From a virus: a stretch of DNA of 25,651 nt. Location of the stretch: IMG/VR virus record IMGVR_UViG_3300028742_000068, positions 1 to 25,651 of that record; one strand, written 5' to 3'. The position numbers were made by a program, and so were the translations under genes. Position 1 is the stretch's first letter, and every line of letters begins with the position of its first letter. The notes below the pieces were generated by a model. That model was not told where the DNA came from. It worked only from the letters and a program-made list of their open reading frames with translations, and made no database searches. Of the stretch, positions 1,787-20,193 are shown in pieces.

Positions 1787-3076
1787 TTACTGGACCGCGA
1801 TCACACCGGAACTGGCGATATCTCCGTACGACAATGCCGTTCCGTGCACGCCGTCGATCGTGTATCCCGGCGCTTTCCAGATACCGGTGTTGATGCCGGT
1901 TTCCATGACTGATGAGGTATCGAACACGCCATCGAAGCAGACGATTTTGGAGCGCAGGGTGTTGTTGACCCGCTGCCGCTGCGTCTCGTCTGCCGAGCTC
2001 ACCAAGGTCTGATTAGTCGTGGTCGCCCAGCTATCCGTGCTAGTCGTTTCGGGATCGATCGTTGTCTGATAGAAATACTGGGCGGGGAACTGCTGACGAA
2101 GTGCCGCGAGGTTCTTGAGGACCGTTGGAGCCGACGCTCCAGTAAATAGGTCGTTCACACCATAGTTGCAGATGATGTGCGTGCAGTACTTCGCTGCAAC
2201 TGCGGCACGTTGGGTAAAGCCAGTCCCCACTACCGCAGCCAGAGTCTCGCCAAACTTGGCAAGGTTGGTGAACGCGCGCACCGGACCGACTGAGCGAGCC
2301 AGTTCGCCAACGTACAGATTGCCGTTCGGCGTGTCCTGATAACCTTCCACGCGACTGTCGCCGAACAGTGCATATGAGGGGACTGTCGTCGGGCCGAAGA
2401 CTGCAATCGGCGGCGCATACGATGACGAGTCGGTGCTGGTGAACGAGCCAGTCGCGCCGGTCAGGTCGGTGGCGCTGGTGTACACAAAGCAGTCGCCAGC
2501 CGTCACGTCAGGGCCAATCGAACTGTCGCCGGTAAAGCCCGTGAAGCACACAGACCCGTTTGTCGCACATTGCCGAAACTCGCGGATAGCGAACTGGGCG
2601 CCGGCCGGAATGGCGAGGGTAACCAGATCGCTCGCGAGCGTCGAGAAGTCATACGCGGTACCGCTATTGCTACCGCCAAACGTCAGTCGCGTGATTGCAC
2701 CACCGAGTGGATATTCAACGCTGGCCGTGATCGTGCAAGCTGCGCCCGCGGCTACTTCAGCCGTACCGTTGCAATACCAGTTCGCGAACGCCGCGCCGAT
2801 CTGGGTGATATTCGTGCGCGCAACGTGGATGGTCCGCGCCATGTGTGCGGTATTTTGCGAGAAGCCGCCGTTGGTGGGCACCTTGGCGCGGGTGGCGACC
2901 AGGCCGGTATAGCTCTGGCCGGTTTGCCATTTGGCGTTGGCGCCGGGGACGCCTTGGGCACCTTGGGCGCCGTTCGTGCCATTTGTTCCGTTGGTGCCGT
3001 TGGTGCCAGCCTCTCCAGGGGATCCGGTTTCTCCGGGGGGACCCTGAACACCAGGAATGCCAATAACAATTGTCAT
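1787..3076 (-). CDS. Tail-associated SGNH hydrolase with collagen-like stalk
   Basis: This 429-residue protein begins with 14 Gly-X-Y triplets (residues 6-47, including four Gly-Thr-Asn repeats), the hallmark of a collagen-like trimeric stalk. A beta-rich middle follows. The C-terminal half is an SGNH/GDSL-type hydrolase: block I FGDSR with Ser241, block III GVND with Asn308, and block V DGVH with Asp408 and His411. All main catalytic residues are present. SGNH enzymes on phage tails typically deacylate host surface glycans, so this is likely a receptor-modifying tail fibre or spike; the exact substrate cannot be read. The gene ends at a terminator, and the next gene upstream is a small structural-type protein. 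Confidence 0.85.
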   Translation of the reverse strand: MTIVIGIPGVQGPPGETGSPGEAGTNGTNGTNGTNGAQGAQGVPGANAKWQTGQSYTGLVATRAKVPTNGGFSQNTAHMARTIHVARTNITQIGAAFANWYCNGTAEVAAGAACTITASVEYPLGGAITRLTFGGSNSGTAYDFSTLASDLVTLAIPAGAQFAIREFRQCATNGSVCFTGFTGDSSIGPDVTAGDCFVYTSATDLTGATGSFTSTDSSSYAPPIAVFGPTTVPSYALFGDSRVEGYQDTPNGNLYVGELARSVGPVRAFTNLAKFGETLAAVVGTGFTQRAAVAAKYCTHIICNYGVNDLFTGASAPTVLKNLAALRQQFPAQYFYQTTIDPETTSTDSWATTTNQTLVSSADETQRQRVNNTLRSKIVCFDGVFDTSSVMETGINTGIWKAPGYTIDGVHGTALSYGDIASSGVIAVQ

Positions 3077-5179: not shown

Positions 5180-5208
5180 TTGACTGATAGGTCCATTGGA
5201 CCTAGTAT
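5180..5208 (+). promoter_or_regulatory. Sigma70-type promoter for the accessory block
   Basis: TTGACT (5180-5185, five of six to the -35 consensus) and TAGTAT (5203-5208, four of six to the -10 consensus) are 17 bp apart, the optimal spacing. The start would fall near 5215, about 47 nt before ATG 5262 and 96 nt before ATG 5311. Orientation matches the plus-strand block that follows. Confidence 0.65.
5188..5204. promoter_or_regulatory. 17-bp perfect palindrome, probable operator
   Basis: TAGGTCCA-T-TGGACCTA is a perfect inverted repeat with 8-bp arms around one central base. It fills the spacer between the -35 and -10 hexamers and covers the first two bases of the -10. A dimeric repressor bound here would block RNA polymerase. 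The HTH-like protein encoded downstream is the obvious candidate for autoregulation; that is inference. Confidence 0.65.
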
Positions 5209-5261
5209 GTACGTACTGGCACCTCGCTTACCGCGCGGTCCGATATCCCGAGAGGACGATC

Positions 5262-6449
5262 ATGAAAGCAAGCTTTCGTGCGCTTTTTCGCGCACTGGGA
5301 ATTTCCCGTCATGCAATACACCCCACCGACGCCGGACGACGTGGAGCGCCTGAAAAAGGAGCTGGGCCTAGACGGCACCCAGATGGCCGAACTGTTCGGT
5401 GTGGCCGGAAACAGGGCATTTCGGCGATATACGTCCAAGTCGGATCTGCCCAAGAACAAGCGCGAGATCGGCGCACACATGTTGTTCTTCGCGATGGCAC
5501 GACTCGAATTGAGCGCCGATGCTATCGAGCGAATCCTCGCGCGCATGCGGCAGGCCGGCGCGACTATCGATCTGTCGGATACCGCTGGCGACTCGGGGTC
5601 ATCGCAGGACTGAGCGTCTGTGTAGCGGCTTGCGGCGGCGCCTCAAGCAAAGACCCCGCACCTGTAGCCAAAGCCATCCTTCCTGCTGCCGTCCCGGCTA
5701 GTGCGCCAGTAGCGGCATCTGATTCGAATACAGCATCACCAGCAGCATCCACCCCGGTGGCGGCTTCGAGTCCCGAGCCTGCTTCAATGCCTGCCGGCGC
5801 ACCTGTGCCGGCTTCGACACCGGTGGCGGGGGTCGTCTTTTTTGGCGACGATCAGGTCTTCGGCGACGTCATCAACCAGTTCGGTATGGTGACGATGACT
5901 TCGCCAACTGAGCCGGCGGCGCTTCAGCCATTGCTCCAATCTGAGTTCAATGATTCTGGCGTGACGGTCGCCAATACTTCGTCAGGCGGAACGTCGTCAT
6001 CGTTGCAAAACGAACTGGCCGGTATGGATGGCATGGGCCAAGGCGAACGCGCCCGAATGATCTCATCGGGCGCCAGGATCGCGGTCGAGGCGCACTCGAT
6101 CAATGATTTCCTCGGCGGCGAAACGGTTGAGGAATATCAGGCCGATCTCATCACGTGGGTTGAGGATGCGCAGGCCAATGGCATTCAGCCTGTTTTGCAA
6201 GAGCCGTCGCCGGTCTGTGATGGATCCGATCCGCTTCAGCCAGAGTACGTCTCAGCCATTGATTCAGTCGGCCAGCAACTGAACGTGCCGGTGATCCCGA
6301 TCTACAGCTATGTCCAGGGCCTCGCCAACTGGCAGTCGCATATGACGAACTGCGAGATTCCGGACGCGTATCTGGATGGCCTGGAGGCGAAGCAGGCGCA
6401 GGCAGTCATTGCACCGCTTGTCAAAACGATCATCGGGGGGAAGTCATGA
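5262..6449 (+). CDS. Lipoprotein with degenerate SGNH-hydrolase-like domain (start uncertain)
   Basis: The convincing part begins near 5580: a basic stretch, a hydrophobic core and the lipobox VAAC followed by GG, then an Ala/Pro/Ser-rich linker and a domain of about 200 residues. The domain resembles SGNH hydrolases, but block I reads FFGDDQ (Ser to Asp), block III reads HSIND, and NCEIPD stands where a DxxHP motif is expected. It is therefore probably catalytically dead. The only standard start in frame is ATG 5262, with a strong AGAGGA 5 nt away. The first 105 residues of that reading are Arg-rich and look like the shadow of the regulator gene in the other frame. So the lipoprotein either uses a non-standard start or frameshift, or carries an unusual N-terminal extension. 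Confidence 0.65.
   Translation: MKASFRALFRALGISRHAIHPTDAGRRGAPEKGAGPRRHPDGRTVRCGRKQGISAIYVQVGSAQEQARDRRTHVVLRDGTTRIERRCYRANPRAHAAGRRDYRSVGYRWRLGVIAGLSVCVAACGGASSKDPAPVAKAILPAAVPASAPVAASDSNTASPAASTPVAASSPEPASMPAGAPVPASTPVAGVVFFGDDQVFGDVINQFGMVTMTSPTEPAALQPLLQSEFNDSGVTVANTSSGGTSSSLQNELAGMDGMGQGERARMISSGARIAVEAHSINDFLGGETVEEYQADLITWVEDAQANGIQPVLQEPSPVCDGSDPLQPEYVSAIDSVGQQLNVPVIPIYSYVQGLANWQSHMTNCEIPDAYLDGLEAKQAQAVIAPLVKTIIGGKS
5264..5307 (+). promoter_or_regulatory. Structured leader: three consecutive inverted repeats before the regulator start
   Basis: GAAAG-CAAG-CTTTC (5264-5277), GTGCGC-6 nt-GCGCAC (5278-5295) and GGGAA-T-TTCCC (5297-5307) follow one another without gaps. The last covers the only purine-rich ribosome-binding candidate (GGGA) of ATG 5311. 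Folding could limit translation of the regulator. The first two lie inside the longer frame that begins at ATG 5262. Confidence 0.45.
5311..5613 (+). CDS. Small HTH-like transcriptional regulator
   Basis: From ATG 5311 this is a 100-residue protein. The N-terminal half (PDDVERLKKELGLDGTQMAELFGVAGNRAFRRY) has the spacing of an XRE-type helix-turn-helix with an LGL-turn-MAELFGV core. A hydrophobic helical segment (HMLFFAMARLEL) and an acidic tail follow. Upstream in-frame GTG 5278 would add MRFFAHWEFPV, but it lacks a good Shine-Dalgarno. It is the first gene behind a promoter with a palindromic operator, so autoregulation is likely. It lies wholly inside the longer frame of the lipoprotein, in the +1 phase. 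Similar small phage proteins usually carry no known function beyond DNA binding. Confidence 0.8.
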   Translation: MQYTPPTPDDVERLKKELGLDGTQMAELFGVAGNRAFRRYTSKSDLPKNKREIGAHMLFFAMARLELSADAIERILARMRQAGATIDLSDTAGDSGSSQD

Positions 6450-9184: not shown

Positions 9185-9217
9185 TTGGCTTTCGGCGATT
9201 CAGTGAGGAATTCGGAA

Positions 9218-9700
9218 ATGATCGAAATACCGCTCACGCAGGGCAAATCCGCGCTTATCGATGACGAGGATTTCGAACTCGTCTCAAAGCACAAGTGGTA
9301 TGCAGAGAAGTCAGGCGACGGACGCCGCTGGTACGCCGCGACATCGATCCGGACTGCTGACGGGAAAAAGACAACGATCAAGATGCACCGCTATATCAAG
9401 GGCATCACCGACCGGAGAATCGATTGCGATCACCGCGATCTGAACGGCCTGAATAACCAGAAGCTCAACCTACGTGTCTGTACCCGCGCGCAGAACATGC
9501 AAAACACGCCAGTCAAATCGAATAGCAGTAGCGGTCTTAAAGGGATCGTGCTGCATAAATCGAGTGGCCTATGGGGCGCCCGCATCCGAGTGAACGGGAA
9601 GGTCAAATCGCTCGGTTATTTCTACACTCCCGAAGGCGCGCACGCGGCGTACTGCAAAGCTGCTGCCGAACATCACGGCGAGTTCGCCCGTACTGCCTAG
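9218..9700 (+). CDS. HNH homing-type endonuclease with AP2 DNA-binding domain
   Basis: From ATG 9218 (GTGAGG about 9 nt before) this is a 160-residue protein. Residues 55-92 hold the HNH signature: MHRYI, then DHRDLNGLNNQKLNLRVCT and AQN. Residues 105-157 hold an AP2-type domain (SGLKGIVLHKSSGLWGARIRVNGKVKSLGYF...AYCKAAAEHHGEFA). This pairing is common in free-standing phage homing endonucleases, which cut a cognate site and spread by repair. The gene faces the opposite way to its neighbours, lies exactly between two tail genes, overlaps the stop of one by 4 nt, and seems lower in GC. All this suggests a mobile intron-less insertion. Confidence 0.92.
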   Translation: MIEIPLTQGKSALIDDEDFELVSKHKWYAEKSGDGRRWYAATSIRTADGKKTTIKMHRYIKGITDRRIDCDHRDLNGLNNQKLNLRVCTRAQNMQNTPVKSNSSSGLKGIVLHKSSGLWGARIRVNGKVKSLGYFYTPEGAHAAYCKAAAEHHGEFARTA

Positions 9701-13679: not shown

Positions 13680-14689
13680 GCTGGAATGGTCAAGGTATTG
13701 ATGCCGGTGAGTACCGGGTCACCGCCAAGTTGAGGATTGGCGGCCAGAATGTCCGTGAAACGGCCGGCATCGCCATATTGCTGCGAGGCAATCGTGTAGA
13801 GATCACCACCACCGACGGTAATGGTCTTCGAGCTGGTCGGCGTTGAAACGAGCGGGAGATTCACCTGCATGCGCGCACAGATGCTGCGCAGTTCGTACAG
13901 TTCGGGCAGTTGTACGGCCGCATTAGCTTGCGCGAGCGCGCTGAAAATCACCGTGTTCGCAGGCAGACCAGGCAATACACCCGAGCCGCTCGCCATCGCA
14001 CCTTCCGCGTTCGCGATCAGCGATTGCACGTGCGACGCCACCGCGGCAAGGGGCGCCGTCACCGATGCTACGGTGCTCGCCACGGTGTTGAGCACCTGGT
14101 CGGCGCAGTTGGCAATGCCGGAAACGAACGAGGTCACCGCCTTCAGGCCATTCGCGATCGGCTGCACAGCGGCAGTCACGGCGCTCATAGCGCTTTGCAG
14201 ATCACCCGCCAGTCCGTTCAGCGTCGAATCGCCGATACAGTTTGACAGCGTGCCCATGCGCGCCATATCGGTTGCCAATGACTGCGCTGGCGTGACGGCC
14301 GGAACCGAATCAATGGTTGCCGTTTGATCCTCGATGACCTCGAAACTGATCGAGTAGGGGATCTTGAACGGCTTCTCGTAGTCGGCATGGAAGTCATGCA
14401 CGACCACCTGATAGCGCAGCGCATCCCATGACAGGGTGCATTGCAGGCCCTCCCGGCGAACCGAGTCCAGAAAGCGGGCGCGCGACAATGCCGAGGTGTA
14501 CAGGAACCACCCAGACCACGACAGCGGTTCGTCGTCGGCTCCCATCGCATTGATGCGGCGCCGGCCGCCGATCATCTTCTGGATGTCGAGCAGTTGCGCG
14601 CCACCGAACCGGATCTTTTCCGGCACTTCCGCATCGGTAAAGACGAAAGACCCGTTCGGCGTGTCCAGTGTGAGGGTCGCAAAGGTCAT
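13676..14689 (-). CDS. LysM-domain tail protein (gp53-like, tube initiator)
   Basis: In this 337-residue protein the N-terminal 115 residues are beta-rich (GGRRRINAMGADDEPLSWSGWFL...), as in DNA-circularisation/gp53-type tail proteins. A long Ala/Val-rich helical middle follows. Residues 286-336 form a LysM-like domain (KTITVGGGDLYTIASQQYGDAGRFTDILAANP). In related phages such proteins bind the tape measure or peptidoglycan and nucleate the tube on the hub. The ATG shares one base with the TGA of the tape measure gene. Confidence 0.85.
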   Translation of the reverse strand: MTFATLTLDTPNGSFVFTDAEVPEKIRFGGAQLLDIQKMIGGRRRINAMGADDEPLSWSGWFLYTSALSRARFLDSVRREGLQCTLSWDALRYQVVVHDFHADYEKPFKIPYSISFEVIEDQTATIDSVPAVTPAQSLATDMARMGTLSNCIGDSTLNGLAGDLQSAMSAVTAAVQPIANGLKAVTSFVSGIANCADQVLNTVASTVASVTAPLAAVASHVQSLIANAEGAMASGSGVLPGLPANTVIFSALAQANAAVQLPELYELRSICARMQVNLPLVSTPTSSKTITVGGGDLYTIASQQYGDAGRFTDILAANPQLGGDPVLTGINTLTIPA

Positions 14690-16701
14690 CAGTACATCCC
14701 CATCCCTGGACTGTACGGCGCAGCCTCAGGATTGAAGCCGGTCGGCCCGGTGCCCTTCGGCGGAATCAGCTTCGTCGCGATCTCGTGACTGTCGACGTAG
14801 AAATGGTTGTGAATGGCGTCACCGAGTTTGCCCCACGGCGAAACCGGTTTTGTCACGTTGTTGCCGAATCCGGGCACACCGCCGGCGGCACCCTGAAAGA
14901 AGGTGTTCTGCTGGTCTGGTGTCATCTTCGACGCCACGGAATCCATCGCGCGCTGGATCATGTAACCGATACCGCCAGCGATGATGGCGCCCACTGCAAC
15001 CACGCCACCTGCAGAGGCCAGCGCAGCAACGCCAATCTCTTCACCAGTCATTGCGGTAGCTGCGCGGGCGAGTAGGGAGCCCGCGCCCCCAGCCAGATAT
15101 TTGGTCAGCCCGACTGCGGCTTTCTCCATCATCCCGGCCGCGCCCTTTGCGCCACTCCATGCACCCATACCGGCGATGGCCGTACCGAAGAGCAGGCCAA
15201 CGTCGAGCCCCGCACCCAGTACCGGGTGATCCTTCGTGAATCCGGCGGTACCGGAAAAGAACGAATTGGCCGCGCTCAGCGCTGAATTGACCGGACCCAT
15301 CAGCGTTGCAGTGCCGTTCATCAATGTAATGTTGGCGTTGGCAATGGTCTGATCTGCGAGGCCCACCGTGCTGACCTGACTCATCATCCGGCCAACGTCC
15401 ATCGGCGGCTGTGACTGGTTCTTCAGGTCGCCCAATGCATGCAGGTTCGATAGCGTCGAGTCTTCGCTGAAGAATGACGCTCCTCGAGCCCCCTGCACAC
15501 CGAAAGCCATCCGGAGCAGGGCATTGAACTTGAGCGGCTCCATCTTTTCGCGATCGGCCGCAAGGATGGACACCTCTTTCATGAGGTCCATGCTGCCGTT
15601 CGCGTAGAACTGCGACTGGTTGCCCTTGTATAGGCCTAGATCCTGCAATGCCGTGTTCTGCTTTGCGTTTGAAAACAGGCCACTACCCAACGTATTCGGC
15701 AACGCGTTGGCGGCCATGGCGTTAAGCCACGTGCCCGACTTCGTGTTCATGATGCCGCCCTGCATCATCGTGGCGATGAGCAGCATCACATCGCTGGAAT
15801 TCGCACCGGCAGCGTGCAGCGAAGGCAATGCATAGCTAGCAGCGCGCCCGATCTGGCCAAGCGACGCGTGCGACGTGAGCGATGCCTGGAGCATCGACTC
15901 GTAAAGAGGTTGGGCTGCTTCTGGCGAATAGGCGCCGGCCATGTGCGACAAGCCAATGAATGCCTGTGTCGCCTCAGGCATTGATACGCCTTTCAGCTTG
16001 GACTCGAGCGCGATATACGGCATCGCGAAGTCCATCATCTGCTTCTGCTGCCCCGCGGACAGCGTTCGCATCAGGCGCGAACCTTCCAGCATCGAGTCGC
16101 CGAACGGTTCAATGTGACCGCCCGTAGCCCATGCGTACTTGCTCGCGTATTCCATCTCGCGAGCGCGCAAGTTCTCGATGTTCGGCTGCCACTGGTCGAA
16201 CGGTACCTGTGCTGTGGCGACCGATTTAACGTTCGCATCAGCCAGGCGGGCGTTTTCGTACACGCCATAGAGCATGCCGGCACCTGCTACGCCGGCAGCC
16301 GTCGCACCGCGACCAGAAGACGTCGAGCGGTCGTCATCGGATGCGGAACCACCGCCGCCACCGCCGGGCACCCGTCCACCAGGCGTGCGCATGCCATTGG
16401 CTTCAGCTCGCGCCGCCGCCATGTTACGGGCGAGATCCCCGCTGCTGGCCGCCATGGTGTCGAGCACGTAGCTCGCGCGCGTGAGACTCCCGGCGCTGTC
16501 GCCAAGGGCGGTTGCAGCCGTCGCGGCCTTCTCGAAGTTGCGGGCCATTCCGGCGCCGGCAGTCGATGCTTTGCGTGCACTCTCGACGAACGCGAGCATT
16601 GAGGCATTTGCCTTGTCCGCCCATTCGACGATCAGCATCAGCCGGTTGCTGACATTGTCCTCAAGTGTGGCGGTGACGCCGATGGCATATGCGTTAATCA
16701 T
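14689..16701 (-). CDS. Tail tape measure protein
   Basis: This is the longest tail gene (670 residues), placed between the chaperone region and the baseplate. A helical, Ala-rich N-terminus leads to a Gly-rich, acidic linker (about residues 106-132). A long helical middle and hydrophobic segments in about residues 490-590 (GVVAVGAIIAGGIGYMIQ) follow; these are typical of tape measures that enter the host membrane. By the rule of roughly 0.15 nm per residue a tail near 100 nm would be expected; that is an estimate. The ATG overlaps the preceding stop as ATGA. Confidence 0.93.
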   Translation of the reverse strand: MINAYAIGVTATLEDNVSNRLMLIVEWADKANASMLAFVESARKASTAGAGMARNFEKAATAATALGDSAGSLTRASYVLDTMAASSGDLARNMAAARAEANGMRTPGGRVPGGGGGGSASDDDRSTSSGRGATAAGVAGAGMLYGVYENARLADANVKSVATAQVPFDQWQPNIENLRAREMEYASKYAWATGGHIEPFGDSMLEGSRLMRTLSAGQQKQMMDFAMPYIALESKLKGVSMPEATQAFIGLSHMAGAYSPEAAQPLYESMLQASLTSHASLGQIGRAASYALPSLHAAGANSSDVMLLIATMMQGGIMNTKSGTWLNAMAANALPNTLGSGLFSNAKQNTALQDLGLYKGNQSQFYANGSMDLMKEVSILAADREKMEPLKFNALLRMAFGVQGARGASFFSEDSTLSNLHALGDLKNQSQPPMDVGRMMSQVSTVGLADQTIANANITLMNGTATLMGPVNSALSAANSFFSGTAGFTKDHPVLGAGLDVGLLFGTAIAGMGAWSGAKGAAGMMEKAAVGLTKYLAGGAGSLLARAATAMTGEEIGVAALASAGGVVAVGAIIAGGIGYMIQRAMDSVASKMTPDQQNTFFQGAAGGVPGFGNNVTKPVSPWGKLGDAIHNHFYVDSHEIATKLIPPKGTGPTGFNPEAAPYSPGMGMY

Positions 16702-17180
16702 TTCCTGCCCGCAAGGGTATCTTCGACGGCCTGTCCGACCAGATTCACGACGTTTTCGGTGTTGCGATACATCGCTGTTGCCAGCACCGGGCGAGGTGGG
16801 ATGCCCTCAGGCGTTCCTTCTTCCTGCCACACCATGACCTCGGCTTCACTGCCTACCGCGAACGCGCGAGGCTCCGCCTCATGCTCAACGCTTTCCCGAA
16901 GACCGCCTTTCACTAGCAGCGGGGTGTTATATCCGGCATCGTCAGCCGCTTCGCCGTCGACGATTGCCTGCAAATGCTGCTGCTTGGTCGCATCCTTCAG
17001 TTCGGCCCACGGGGTGAGCTCTCCCATGTCCTCGCGCTGGTAGTGGCCGAACTCTTCCTTGGCCGTCGCCTCGACGAGGATCGCGCCCGTCTCCATGGCA
17101 GCCGCGTAGGCCAGATCGAGTTCAGCCGCCGCGCGCTCCATCGCCCGGGCGAAAGCGCCGAATGACTTGTATGTCTTCAT
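16698..17180 (-). CDS. HK97 gp10-like tail component
   Basis: From ATG 17180 this is a 161-residue protein. The start is fixed by an ATGA overlap with the stop of the frameshifted chaperone extension; GTG 17216 would overlap that extension deeply. The N-terminal helix MERAAAELDLAYAAAMETGAILVEATAKEEFG, an SVEHEAEPRAFAVGS stretch, and EEGTPEGIPPRPVLATAM with the conserved IPPRP motif fit the HK97 gp10 / virion morphogenesis family. Its position between chaperone and tape measure is unusual, as gp10-type genes normally lie in the neck region. Confidence 0.8.
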   Translation of the reverse strand: MKTYKSFGAFARAMERAAAELDLAYAAAMETGAILVEATAKEEFGHYQREDMGELTPWAELKDATKQQHLQAIVDGEAADDAGYNTPLLVKGGLRESVEHEAEPRAFAVGSEAEVMVWQEEGTPEGIPPRPVLATAMYRNTENVVNLVGQAVEDTLAGRK

Positions 17181-17703
17181 TTCGGCTTCTTCCACTCCAT
17201 GCTTGACCACGACCACTCGGCGCCTTGGATTTCGCCCGCGGCAATGCAGAATCCAAGCAATTCAGCGGGCTGGAGTCGTGTCGCGACATCCCACGGGACA
17301 CCGGCTTTCGTAAGCATCAGCACCTTACGCACGCCAGGGTCCCGGCTTATTTTTTTGCGGCTTCGCGGTCTTCCTTGTCATCGAATAGCTTGATGCCCTT
17401 CGTGAGCGCGGCGAGACCCTTATGACCGAGCCGCCCGATCAGCGCCTTGACCTGCAGCAAGGTCGTGGGCAGATGCACGGGGGTCTCATCGATCGCGCTC
17501 AGGTAGATGAGCGGCAGGCACATATTGACGAAGCGGGTGTTCTCCGCCGCCTCATTGCCGATGGCCAGCACGAGTTCGTACTGCGCAAGCGGGCCCGGAT
17601 AGGTCAGTGTCAATTTGCGGCCATCGGCCACGTCGACGACTGCCGTATCGCCATTGAGCACCGGTGCGGTGCCGCTGGTTTCTGTAACGTTCAGTTCGGT
17701 CAT
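17177..17703 (-). CDS. Tail assembly chaperone G-T fusion made by -1 frameshift
   Basis: Translation of G to its second-last codons and a -1 slip on A AAA AAA (17356-17350) avoids the TAA and continues 57 residues to the TGA at 17179-17177. The fusion has 175 residues. The extension (ISRDPGVRKVLMLTKAGVPWDV...GAEWSWSSMEWKKPK) has the pattern of GT extensions: a short linker, an LT-AGVP-DVA helix, a C-terminal GE-G-E-W-W motif. It fills a gap that otherwise has no gene. Its stop overlaps the next start as ATGA. G and G-T would bind tape measure and tube subunits during assembly. Confidence 0.88.
17347..17703 (-). CDS. Tail assembly chaperone G
   Basis: This is the 118-residue unshifted product. 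It starts MTELNVTETSGTAPV and has a helical core (PGPLAQYELVLAIGNEAAENTRFVNMCLPLIYLSAID) typical of tail chaperones of the lambda G / Mu gp41 class. It ends EDREAAKK at TAA. It lies between the tube and the tape measure, the canonical place. No good Shine-Dalgarno precedes the ATG, which is 5 nt beyond the tube stop, so translation is probably coupled. Confidence 0.9.
   Translation of the reverse strand: MTELNVTETSGTAPVLNGDTAVVDVADGRKLTLTYPGPLAQYELVLAIGNEAAENTRFVNMCLPLIYLSAIDETPVHLPTTLLQVKALIGRLGHKGLAALTKGIKLFDDKEDREAAKK
17350..17356 (-). promoter_or_regulatory. Ribosomal -1 frameshift slippery site
   Basis: On the minus strand seven consecutive A occupy codons GCA AAA AAA just before TAA, giving the heptamer A AAA AAA in the right phase. 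Slipping back one base puts ribosomes into the GT frame, and the nearby TAA may promote pausing. Confidence 0.85.
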
Positions 17704-17707
17704 AGGT

Positions 17708-18142
17708 TCAGTTCAACTGGATGCGGGTGGACGCGAGGAACGAGACGCGCTGGATCACGTTCTTTTCGGCTTCGGCGTCGCCAGCGTCGTCGAAGTAGAG
17801 GATCACACCCTGAAGCTGGAAGGTGCTCGGCGGTCCGCTGATTTCGGTGATGGTTTCCTGGATGAAGCCAGCCGGCTGGACGATGCCTGCGTAGTAGTTC
17901 GCCTCGAAGTTGGCGAAGTACGTATCGAGCGTCGCGTCAGCGCGCGAGACTTCGAACGAGCCTTCCCAGCCACCCTCCTGGAACGAGAGGTGGATCGGCA
18001 GCGTGTTGAGCGGCTTCACCGTCAACTTGTTGGTGATCTTCCGCTTCTTGAAATTCAGCAGCGTCGGCAGAGTGAGCAGGCCGGCCGACGTATAGACATC
18101 GAAGCGGTAGTCACTGCCTATATTCAGGCCTGATTGCGGCAT
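17708..18142 (-). CDS. Tail tube protein
   Basis: This 144-residue protein is directly downstream of the sheath gene, the canonical place of the tube. The sequence is beta-rich with the pattern of contractile-tail tube proteins: LPTLLNFKKRKITNKLTVKPLNTLPIHLSFQEGGWEGSFEVSRADATLDTYFANFEANYYAG, then a C-terminal beta strand pair. It polymerises inside the sheath to make the DNA channel. The ATG follows a terminator hairpin and CTGGAG. Confidence 0.88.
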   Translation of the reverse strand: MPQSGLNIGSDYRFDVYTSAGLLTLPTLLNFKKRKITNKLTVKPLNTLPIHLSFQEGGWEGSFEVSRADATLDTYFANFEANYYAGIVQPAGFIQETITEISGPPSTFQLQGVILYFDDAGDAEAEKNVIQRVSFLASTRIQLN

Positions 18143-18198: not shown

Positions 18199-20193
18199 TT
18201 ACTGCGGCGTTACGGTGACGGTCTGTCCGCCCTCGATATTCACGAGGAAGTACCGCACGATCGAGAGATACGTAACCATGACGGTCGCGACCATGTAACC
18301 CAGCGCAACCTGACTGATCGGGTTGTTCGCCGCGTTGATCTGCACCGACCACCCGGGCTGCGTCGGCGCATTAACGTTGCCGATCATGTTGTTCGCCTGC
18401 AGGTTGGCGAAGAACGCATCCATCGCGCCCTTCACGTTGCGCCGCAGGTTGATCGTCTGGACCTTTCCCGGCACGTAGCCGAACGCACTCGCGATCGTGA
18501 ATGCGATGTAGTTCGTCATCCGCGTGTAGTTGTCGCCGTTCGTCGCGCTGTTGCTGCTCGCGTTGCGACCGGTGCGGCATGCGAAGATCGCGCCGGCCGG
18601 AGCCGGGTTGGTGATCACTTCGAGGCGGGAGGTGGCCGCGAGCGCGATTTCCGCATCGCTGTACGGCTGGTTCTGCTGGCTGCGCTGGGTCGCGAGGATG
18701 CCGCTGATCGGCGCATTCAGCACAGACTGCTCGGGACTCGTCGAGGCCTGTTGCGCCGAAGAGAACGTGGCGGGCGACACCAGACGGTTCACGCCATTGA
18801 CGGTGTCCTGCCAGAACGTCCAGTCGCCCACCAGACACGCGAAACCATACCCATCGACACCGGCGCTCGAGAGATTGGCGGCGCTCGTCGTAATGCTGGT
18901 ACCCACCGGGTTCGCGCTGTGGAAATAGATGCCTTCCTGCAGTCCGAATGCGAGCTGGAGCGTCCAGGTGCTCGGTGTCTGGCAGTCAATCAGGTTGCCG
19001 ACCTGCGCACCCGCCTTGCGAAGCGCATACATACCGGAACGTGTCAGGCCATCTGCGCCCACCATCGTGATATCGGTCACGCCCGCCGTGCCATCGGTAC
19101 CGCCGGCCAGCGTGTAGGTGTTCGTGAGGTTCGGCGCGTTGGCGGAAGTGCCCAGCGTGGCGATGCAGTTCTGCGACGGGCCACGAAGCCCGGTCTGGCC
19201 GTTGTTCACGGCGTTGACCATATTCAGCCAGACGCTGGTCACCAGACTGATCGTGCCGCCGGTGCCGCCGCCGCCCGTGAGTGTGGCGGTGGCCGACGTG
19301 TAGCCTGCGCCGGAGATGCCGGGCGTGAAGGCGCCAAGGCCCCACACCATGTTGACCAGCGCACCAGTGCCGACACCAGAGGTCGAGGCGGGCGCGACCG
19401 CAGCGGTCGGCGCCGTGCCGCCAGTGAGCGCGCCGGCGTTCGTGACGGTTAGCGACGTGATGACGCCAGCCGTAGCGGTGACCGTCAGGATGACGCCGTT
19501 GGCCATCGTGATGGTGTCACCGGTCACATAACCCGTACCGCCGATCGCCCCGCCGCCGGTGACGTTGGCCGACAGCACCTTCAGGCTAATCGTGCCCGTC
19601 GCCTGCACGCCATTGGCGGCCTGCGGCGCCGAGATAGCCAGTCCGGGAACAGATGTAAATCCGGTGCCCGGGGTGACCGTGCCGCTGGCGACGCCCTGCG
19701 AGAGGTTGTCGAATACTTCCGGCGTGAAGCCGTTACGCTGGATCGACAGCTTGTAGGTGTTCGCCGCGGTGCCCGCAACGATTGAGCATGTGATGCCGTT
19801 GCCGACGATGCCGGTGTACAGACCCGTCAGCGTCATGCCCGTGACCGGCGAGCCGAGCGTGTCTTTCAGTGCCGCGCTGGCAGCGGTATCCGTACCATCC
19901 GTGACGCGCACGAGGACGTAATTCTGGACACCGTTCACATCGCCGATGGCGACGGCGCTCGCGATGTCGCGCGGGCGGTTGGTGACTGGTCCGATGAGTG
20001 TCTGGGCCTGCGCGCTGTTGCCAACGCCCATCATGGCCGAGTTGACCGGACCCCACGAACCGACACCAACGAGGCCGAGGCCATCCGTTGGCACGCCGTT
20101 GATATACGCGATACTCGGCGGCTGGATGATGACGTACAGGTCGGGGGCCTGCAGCGCGGTGACGTTCAAACTGCCAGCTTGAAAGACGGGCAT
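18199..20193 (-). CDS. Tail sheath protein with inserted surface domain
   Basis: This 664-residue protein is flanked by terminators and precedes the tube. Residues 1-165 and about 318-664 look like a contractile sheath: an LGLVGVGSWGPVN start, VNAVNNGQTGLRG, the conserved C-terminal half with TRMTNYIAFTIASAFGYVPGKVQ and a long final helix and strand. Between them about 150 residues (170-317) are Gly/Thr-rich, with repeats of the GYVTGDTITM...VTATAGVITSLTV and GAGYTSATATLTGGGGTGG kind. Sheaths are usually shorter. The insertion would project outwards as an extra beta domain. Confidence 0.9.
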   Translation of the reverse strand: MPVFQAGSLNVTALQAPDLYVIIQPPSIAYINGVPTDGLGLVGVGSWGPVNSAMMGVGNSAQAQTLIGPVTNRPRDIASAVAIGDVNGVQNYVLVRVTDGTDTAASAALKDTLGSPVTGMTLTGLYTGIVGNGITCSIVAGTAANTYKLSIQRNGFTPEVFDNLSQGVASGTVTPGTGFTSVPGLAISAPQAANGVQATGTISLKVLSANVTGGGAIGGTGYVTGDTITMANGVILTVTATAGVITSLTVTNAGALTGGTAPTAAVAPASTSGVGTGALVNMVWGLGAFTPGISGAGYTSATATLTGGGGTGGTISLVTSVWLNMVNAVNNGQTGLRGPSQNCIATLGTSANAPNLTNTYTLAGGTDGTAGVTDITMVGADGLTRSGMYALRKAGAQVGNLIDCQTPSTWTLQLAFGLQEGIYFHSANPVGTSITTSAANLSSAGVDGYGFACLVGDWTFWQDTVNGVNRLVSPATFSSAQQASTSPEQSVLNAPISGILATQRSQQNQPYSDAEIALAATSRLEVITNPAPAGAIFACRTGRNASSNSATNGDNYTRMTNYIAFTIASAFGYVPGKVQTINLRRNVKGAMDAFFANLQANNMIGNVNAPTQPGWSVQINAANNPISQVALGYMVATVMVTYLSIVRYFLVNIEGGQTVTVTPQ

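Follow-up and report, generated by a model that had tools for sequence, protein, structure and literature searches.

Does a short, unannotated gene in a phage tail module give rise to one protein or to two? The DNA analyzed here, IMGVR_UViG_3300028742_000068, 25,651 bases in length (the window), carries a myovirus tail module on its minus strand, as recognized from the list of ORFs and from profile matches. Behind one gene of this module, which we term G, lies a stretch with no conventional gene of its own. A sequence-only reading had proposed that this stretch, designated T, is reached by a programmed -1 frameshift at the end of G, giving a tail chaperone G-T. The conserved heptamer, the extension, the position of the gene and a fold match support that proposal, and we regard it as very likely that the one gene yields two tail assembly chaperones through a programmed -1 ribosomal frameshift. 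The device is known from phage lambda; here it occurs in an unannotated protein family and together with a conserved RNA hairpin.

The end of gene G

The genes of the module follow one another in the order sheath, tube, G, T, Neck1-like gene and tape measure (Table 1), the tube being called by its position. The location of G between tail tube and tape measure fits a chaperone of the lambda type; here T and the tape measure are separated by an additional gene. A gene similar to this Neck1-like gene follows T in 141 of the 171 related loci that have a following ORF; its placement between T and the tape measure is unlike the arrangement in lambda and P2.

Table 1. Features of the tail module and of the frameshift site in the window.
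Feature	Position	Strand	Basis or remarks
Tail sheath	18199..20193	-	phrog_23 E=4e-26
Tail tube candidate, directly upstream of G	17708..18142	-	phrog_12993 (function unknown); position after sheath
G, probable tail assembly chaperone, 0-frame product	17347..17703	-	118 aa, 12.7 kDa; phrog_20383 E=8e-25; fold match 2OB9
AGGA, possible Shine-Dalgarno-like element, weak	17372..17375	-	15 nt before heptamer
Slippery heptamer A AAA AAA	17350..17356	-	0-frame codons AAA AAA adjoining the stop; same phase in relatives
0-frame stop TAA	17347..17349	-	directly 3' of heptamer
Spacer TAAGC, 5 nt	17345..17349	-	between heptamer and stem
Downstream stem, 5' arm CGGGACCCTGGCGT	17331..17344	-	folding and covariation
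Inner (apical) stem, 5' arm CGTAAG	17324..17329	-	folding and covariation
Inner (apical) stem, 3' arm CTTACG	17309..17314	-	folding and covariation
Downstream stem, 3' arm AAGCCGGTGTCCCG	17294..17307	-	folding and covariation
T, -1 frame extension	17177..17350	-	57 codons + TGA; predicted three-helix domain
Tail completion / Neck1-like gene	16698..17180	-	phrog_26, phrog_222; start overlaps T stop as ATGA
Tape measure candidate (PhageMin_Tail)	14689..16701	-	PF10145 E=2.6e-7, below curated cut-off; position

The reading-frame part of the proposal is borne out. G ends in GAA GCC GCA AAA AAA TAA, with the run of seven A residues in X_XXY_YYZ phase and the stop codon adjoining it. In the -1 frame translation would continue as ISRDPG...KKPK for 57 codons (17350-17180) up to a TGA at 17179-17177, which overlaps the ATG of the next gene (17180-17178) as ATGA, and the resulting fusion, GT, has 175 aa and a mass of 19.0 kDa. 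Positions 17181-17346 indeed hold no stand-alone gene: no ORF of at least 60 aa starts there on the sense strand, the only exception being the next gene in a form extended to a GTG (17216). An open -1 frame is nevertheless weak evidence when taken alone, about 20% of the positions in a shuffled window being open for 55 codons, and runs of seven A are not rare, with three in the window against 0.8 expected. The case therefore rests on comparison with relatives, in which two things rise above chance: an in-phase slippery heptamer across the related loci, and purifying selection in the -1 frame.

The slip site and the extension in related loci

Relatives were gathered by the similarity of G, tube or T, and not by way of the heptamer. 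This gave 181 distinct loci, most of them on metagenomic contigs. A slippery heptamer is present in the same phase in 173 of the 181, and in 144 of these it stands directly before the 0-frame stop. The heptamers are AAAAAAA (48 loci), AAAAAAC (43), AAAAAAG (34) and GGGAAAC (48); the remaining 8 loci have none of the four, and several of them still have A-rich lysine codons at the stop. Heptamer type has changed at least 16 times on the family tree (21 with the larger set), the site being slippery throughout. Degenerate slip sites (A AAG AAG, A AAA GAC, CGA AAA and similar, or CCCTTTG) next to an intact extension are seen in L163, L157, L161, L243, L253, L060 and L100; these members possibly rely on a weaker site or on slips by a single tRNA.

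The extension is 55-62 codons long in nearly all of the first 128 loci. When T is compared with its close relatives, the -1 frame alone is under constraint, with a dN/dS of 0.17-0.39; in each of the other two frames pN is about equal to pS or exceeds it. It is this comparison, with the heptamer kept in phase and the extension under selection, that speaks for a genuine programmed -1 frameshift. Related phages in which the extension is interrupted or the A-run unconserved had been named beforehand as grounds for abandoning the idea, and the idea came through this test. The window clade (20 distinct loci, with G down to about 40% identity) retains A AAA AAA in every member, more distant relatives have another slippery heptamer at the same place, and the extension is open in nearly all. 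The nearest locus from a cultured isolate is that of Paraburkholderia tagetis RG36 (L042), and several separate metagenome assemblies contain identical copies, so that a sequencing error does not account for the run of seven A. In part of the GGGAAAC clade (L050, L051, L053, L054, L056, L058, L059, L123, L139 and others) the 0-frame stop lies 6-7 codons further downstream, with the heptamer and the stem described below unmoved; the heptamer, rather than the stop, is thus the fixed point.

Because the run of seven A is a homopolymer, T might instead be reached through transcriptional slippage, in which RNA polymerase adds one A and some mRNAs are then read straight into T; longer A-run cassettes do shift more in E. 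coli (PMC3711429). We consider this very unlikely. Relatives carry A6C, A6G and GGGAAAC at the same site, which are slippery for tRNAs but are not long homopolymer runs, and the conserved long homopolymer run that marks a transcriptional slippage site is absent among them. The retention of the X_XXY_YYZ phase and the presence downstream of a covarying RNA stem with ribosomal spacing likewise speak against slippage by the polymerase. Even less probable is that T is a separate small protein made by re-initiation in the -1 frame after the G stop, with the heptamer incidental. The annotators of phages phiKX1 and phiKX2 did give T as a gene of its own, and GTG, TTG or ATG is found early in T at some loci. 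Yet in 69 of 129 loci none of these three codons occurs among the first 12 of T (ATG is present in only 9), conservation reaches right to the G-T junction, and a separate T leaves unexplained the in-phase heptamer in 173 of the 181 loci.

A stem-loop inside the extension

Ribosomal frameshifting at this site had been proposed with the reservation that an obvious downstream stem was lacking. That reservation does not hold: a stem-loop begins 5 nt past the heptamer, with a predicted minimum free energy of -28.7 kcal/mol for the 60-nt segment, and it covaries among relatives. It is the most stable of 954 segments of 52 nt taken across G, T and the next gene. Its first pair is C-G, followed by G-C, G-C, G-C, A-U and C-G. 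By published empirical rules, stimulatory hairpins of bacteria start 4-10 nt after the motif, with a G-C first pair and at least 3 further pairs (PMC4066793), and the stem of the window, which starts after 5 nt with C-G, agrees with these rules. A 5-bp hairpin just past the stop (GCCGG/CTGGC) was also considered and was dropped, the longer stem being more stable and covarying. A search of Rfam returned no known element, the one match (chrB-a) being at chance level and elsewhere.

Since the stem lies inside coding sequence, synonymous resampling was used as the fair control. Against it the window clade gives z values of -2.3 to -2.5 for the stem, the GGGAAAC clade gives -2.3 to -3.5, and AAAAAAC clade B lies near -3; further downstream z is about 0 in most groups. 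All three of these clades, and phage phiKX1, share this stem, placed identically with respect to the heptamer. In a joint alignment of 46 distinct rows, 88% of cells are paired and the covariation score is 0.392, as against 0.199 +/- 0.012 for shuffled alignments and at most 0.129 for slid ones. Pair 16-60 is G-C, C-G or A-U depending on the clade. The shuffles preserve column make-up and not relatedness, so that the slid and synonymous controls weigh most.

A frameshift could be real and the stem still be a mere by-product of protein coding, imposed by the fixed DPG and GVP codons and without a role of its own. The stem lies wholly within T codons that are under protein selection, and conserved residues do account for part of the pairing, as synonymous resampling yields 7-8 pairs. 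The observed number, however, is 13-14, and double changes preserve pairs in the stem. Moreover, the AAAAAAC members of clade D, with some members having seven A, possess a covarying stem of their own at a different register. We accordingly think it unlikely that the stem is only a by-product. In the AAAAAAG members of clade D no stem was found.

Upstream of the heptamer the signals differ by clade. In the window clade a Shine-Dalgarno-like stimulator was sought; AGGA lies 15 nt before the heptamer, but the signal does not exceed that of the synonymous control. In the GGGAAAC clade a Shine-Dalgarno-like sequence of the GGGGAG type lies 8-10 nt upstream of the heptamer (-6.3 kcal/mol versus -4.4 kcal/mol in the control, n=51), and it is a possible second stimulator.

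Products of the gene and their probable role

G matches only PHROG 20383, to which no function has been assigned, and all 64 members of the family that were tested (64/64) match the same PHROG. The AlphaFold model of G, a confident one (pLDDT 86.6), has as its best PDB fold match 2OB9, the HK97 tail assembly chaperone, with a probability of 0.93, an E value of 0.08 and a modest TM score of 0.46-0.50; the next distinct PDB entry has a probability of 0.14. When G is compared with HK97 gp13 by profile the score is marginal, 11 of 2000 shuffles being as good, and beyond this score no significant sequence link of G or T to the lambda, P2 or HK97 chaperones was found. T is confidently predicted to form a three-helix domain (pLDDT 92.7) and has no credible match by sequence in Pfam, NCBIfam, PHROGs or PDB. 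The sequence-only reading had seen in T the known pattern of a GT extension. We could not confirm this: T lacks a credible family match, and against lambda T, P2 E' and HK97 T it scores no better than shuffled sequences do, for which reason homology to these three was rejected.

The position of the gene and the modest fold match to the HK97 chaperone suggest that G acts as a chaperone. We infer that G and GT work in assembly in the manner of lambda G and GT, a likeness of function with no demonstrated descent from the lambda, P2 or HK97 families. Most ribosomes would halt at the TAA and release G. A fraction of them, with both AAA codons of the heptamer occupied by tRNA-Lys, would move back by one base and go on to make GT, with its T domain. 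The stem-loop (17344-17294), placed within the T coding sequence, most likely delays the ribosome and lifts the slip rate, and slow termination at the adjoining stop may add to slippage. Speaking against this reading, A AAA AAA slips less readily in E. coli than A AAA AAG does (PMC5009743); such efficiencies refer to E. coli and not to the host of this phage. By analogy with lambda, where G and T bind the tape measure and the tube protein, respectively (PMC5009743), G would here bind the tape measure protein and T would recruit tube subunits. PHROG 20383, a large and unannotated family, would together with the T domain gain a probable function and a second product.

Strength of the heptamer and presence of the hairpin

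In E. coli A_AAA_AAG slips far more readily than either A_AAA_AAA or A_AAA_AAC (PMC5009743), and motifs of low efficiency include A_AAA_AAC and G_GGA_AAC (PMC4066793). Hairpin z by heptamer is -0.36 for AAAAAAG, -1.44 for AAAAAAA, -2.14 for AAAAAAC and -2.69 for GGGAAAC, an order inverse to that of shiftiness. A stem of either register is present in 1 of 34 AAAAAAG loci, as against 101 of 139 loci with the other heptamers (29/48 for AAAAAAA, 27/43 for AAAAAAC and 45/48 for GGGAAAC), and over loci the association between heptamer and hairpin has a Mann-Whitney p of 3e-7. Independent contrasts between AAG and non-AAG partners number about 10 (3 on supported branches); on average the stem is confined to the non-AAG partner in 3.6 of them, and the reverse is seen in 0. 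This chaperone family may thus have traded heptamer strength against the hairpin, such that lineages using A AAA AAG, the most shift-prone of the heptamers, do without a downstream hairpin and the halves of the signal are exchanged. Since relatedness leaves only about 10 contrasts, we offer the trade-off as an unproven hypothesis, to which we give somewhat less than even weight. The many variants of heptamer and hairpin within one homologous gene amount to a natural experiment on the way in which a frameshift ratio is maintained as the underlying signal varies.

Relationship to described phages and frameshift systems

The locus resembles that of lambda in that a short gene lies between those for tail tube and tape measure, and a -1 slip near its end would add the T domain. 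It differs in its heptamer, which is A AAA AAA and adjoins the stop here but is GGGAAAG in lambda, in the absence of sequence similarity of either G or T, and in the Neck1-like gene noted above. HK97, a siphovirus, has an annotated -1 frameshift chaperone pair, gp13/gp14, whose structure 2OB9 gave the fold match of G; its gp14 extension, however, does not match T. The myovirus P2 shares the order sheath, tube, E, E', tape measure and has an annotated -1 frameshift giving E and E+E', but its slip site is T TTT TTG, there is no sequence similarity, and no gene lies between E' and the tape measure. The chaperones G and GT of lambda were described by Levin 1993 and by Xu, Hendrix and Duda 2004 and 2013, as summarised in PMC5009743. 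IS3-family elements and dnaX (PMC4066793) likewise combine an X_XXZ_ZZN heptamer with a hairpin 4-10 nt downstream that has a G-C pair; the hairpin described here differs in lying inside a putative phage chaperone gene, with a stop that adjoins the heptamer in most members.

We also searched 50,697 phage records. Window G, G plus T of another clade, and G of a third clade found nothing among them; T and tube found only the Komagataeibacter xylinus phages phiKX1 (LC644975) and phiKX2 (LC644976), which are contractile-tailed by electron microscopy (PMC8566455). Both have the same module order as the window, with a homologous tube (E=2e-14 for that of phiKX1) and T. In phiKX1, in which both G and T are present, the slip site is A AAA AAC TGA, in place of the A AAA AAA of the window, and is followed by the same stem. 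Both records list T as an independent 'hypothetical protein' that starts at an internal ATG (L200 / L201, 3019-3198); it probably constitutes the end of the preceding gene, reached by frameshifting, and the two phages illustrate how T is missed or split by gene callers.

Several other genes of the window were noted in passing. An AP2-domain gene (9185-9700, plus strand; PF00847 E=3e-4, below cut-off) lies on the strand opposite to the tail module, between baseplate and tail fibre genes, and is possibly homing-endonuclease-like. Two proteins similar to GDSL/SGNH hydrolases are encoded at 5196-6449 (plus strand) and 1787-3076 (minus strand), one of them behind a collagen-like stretch. A patatin-like phospholipase gene is located at 151-972 on the minus strand (PF01734 E=5e-28).
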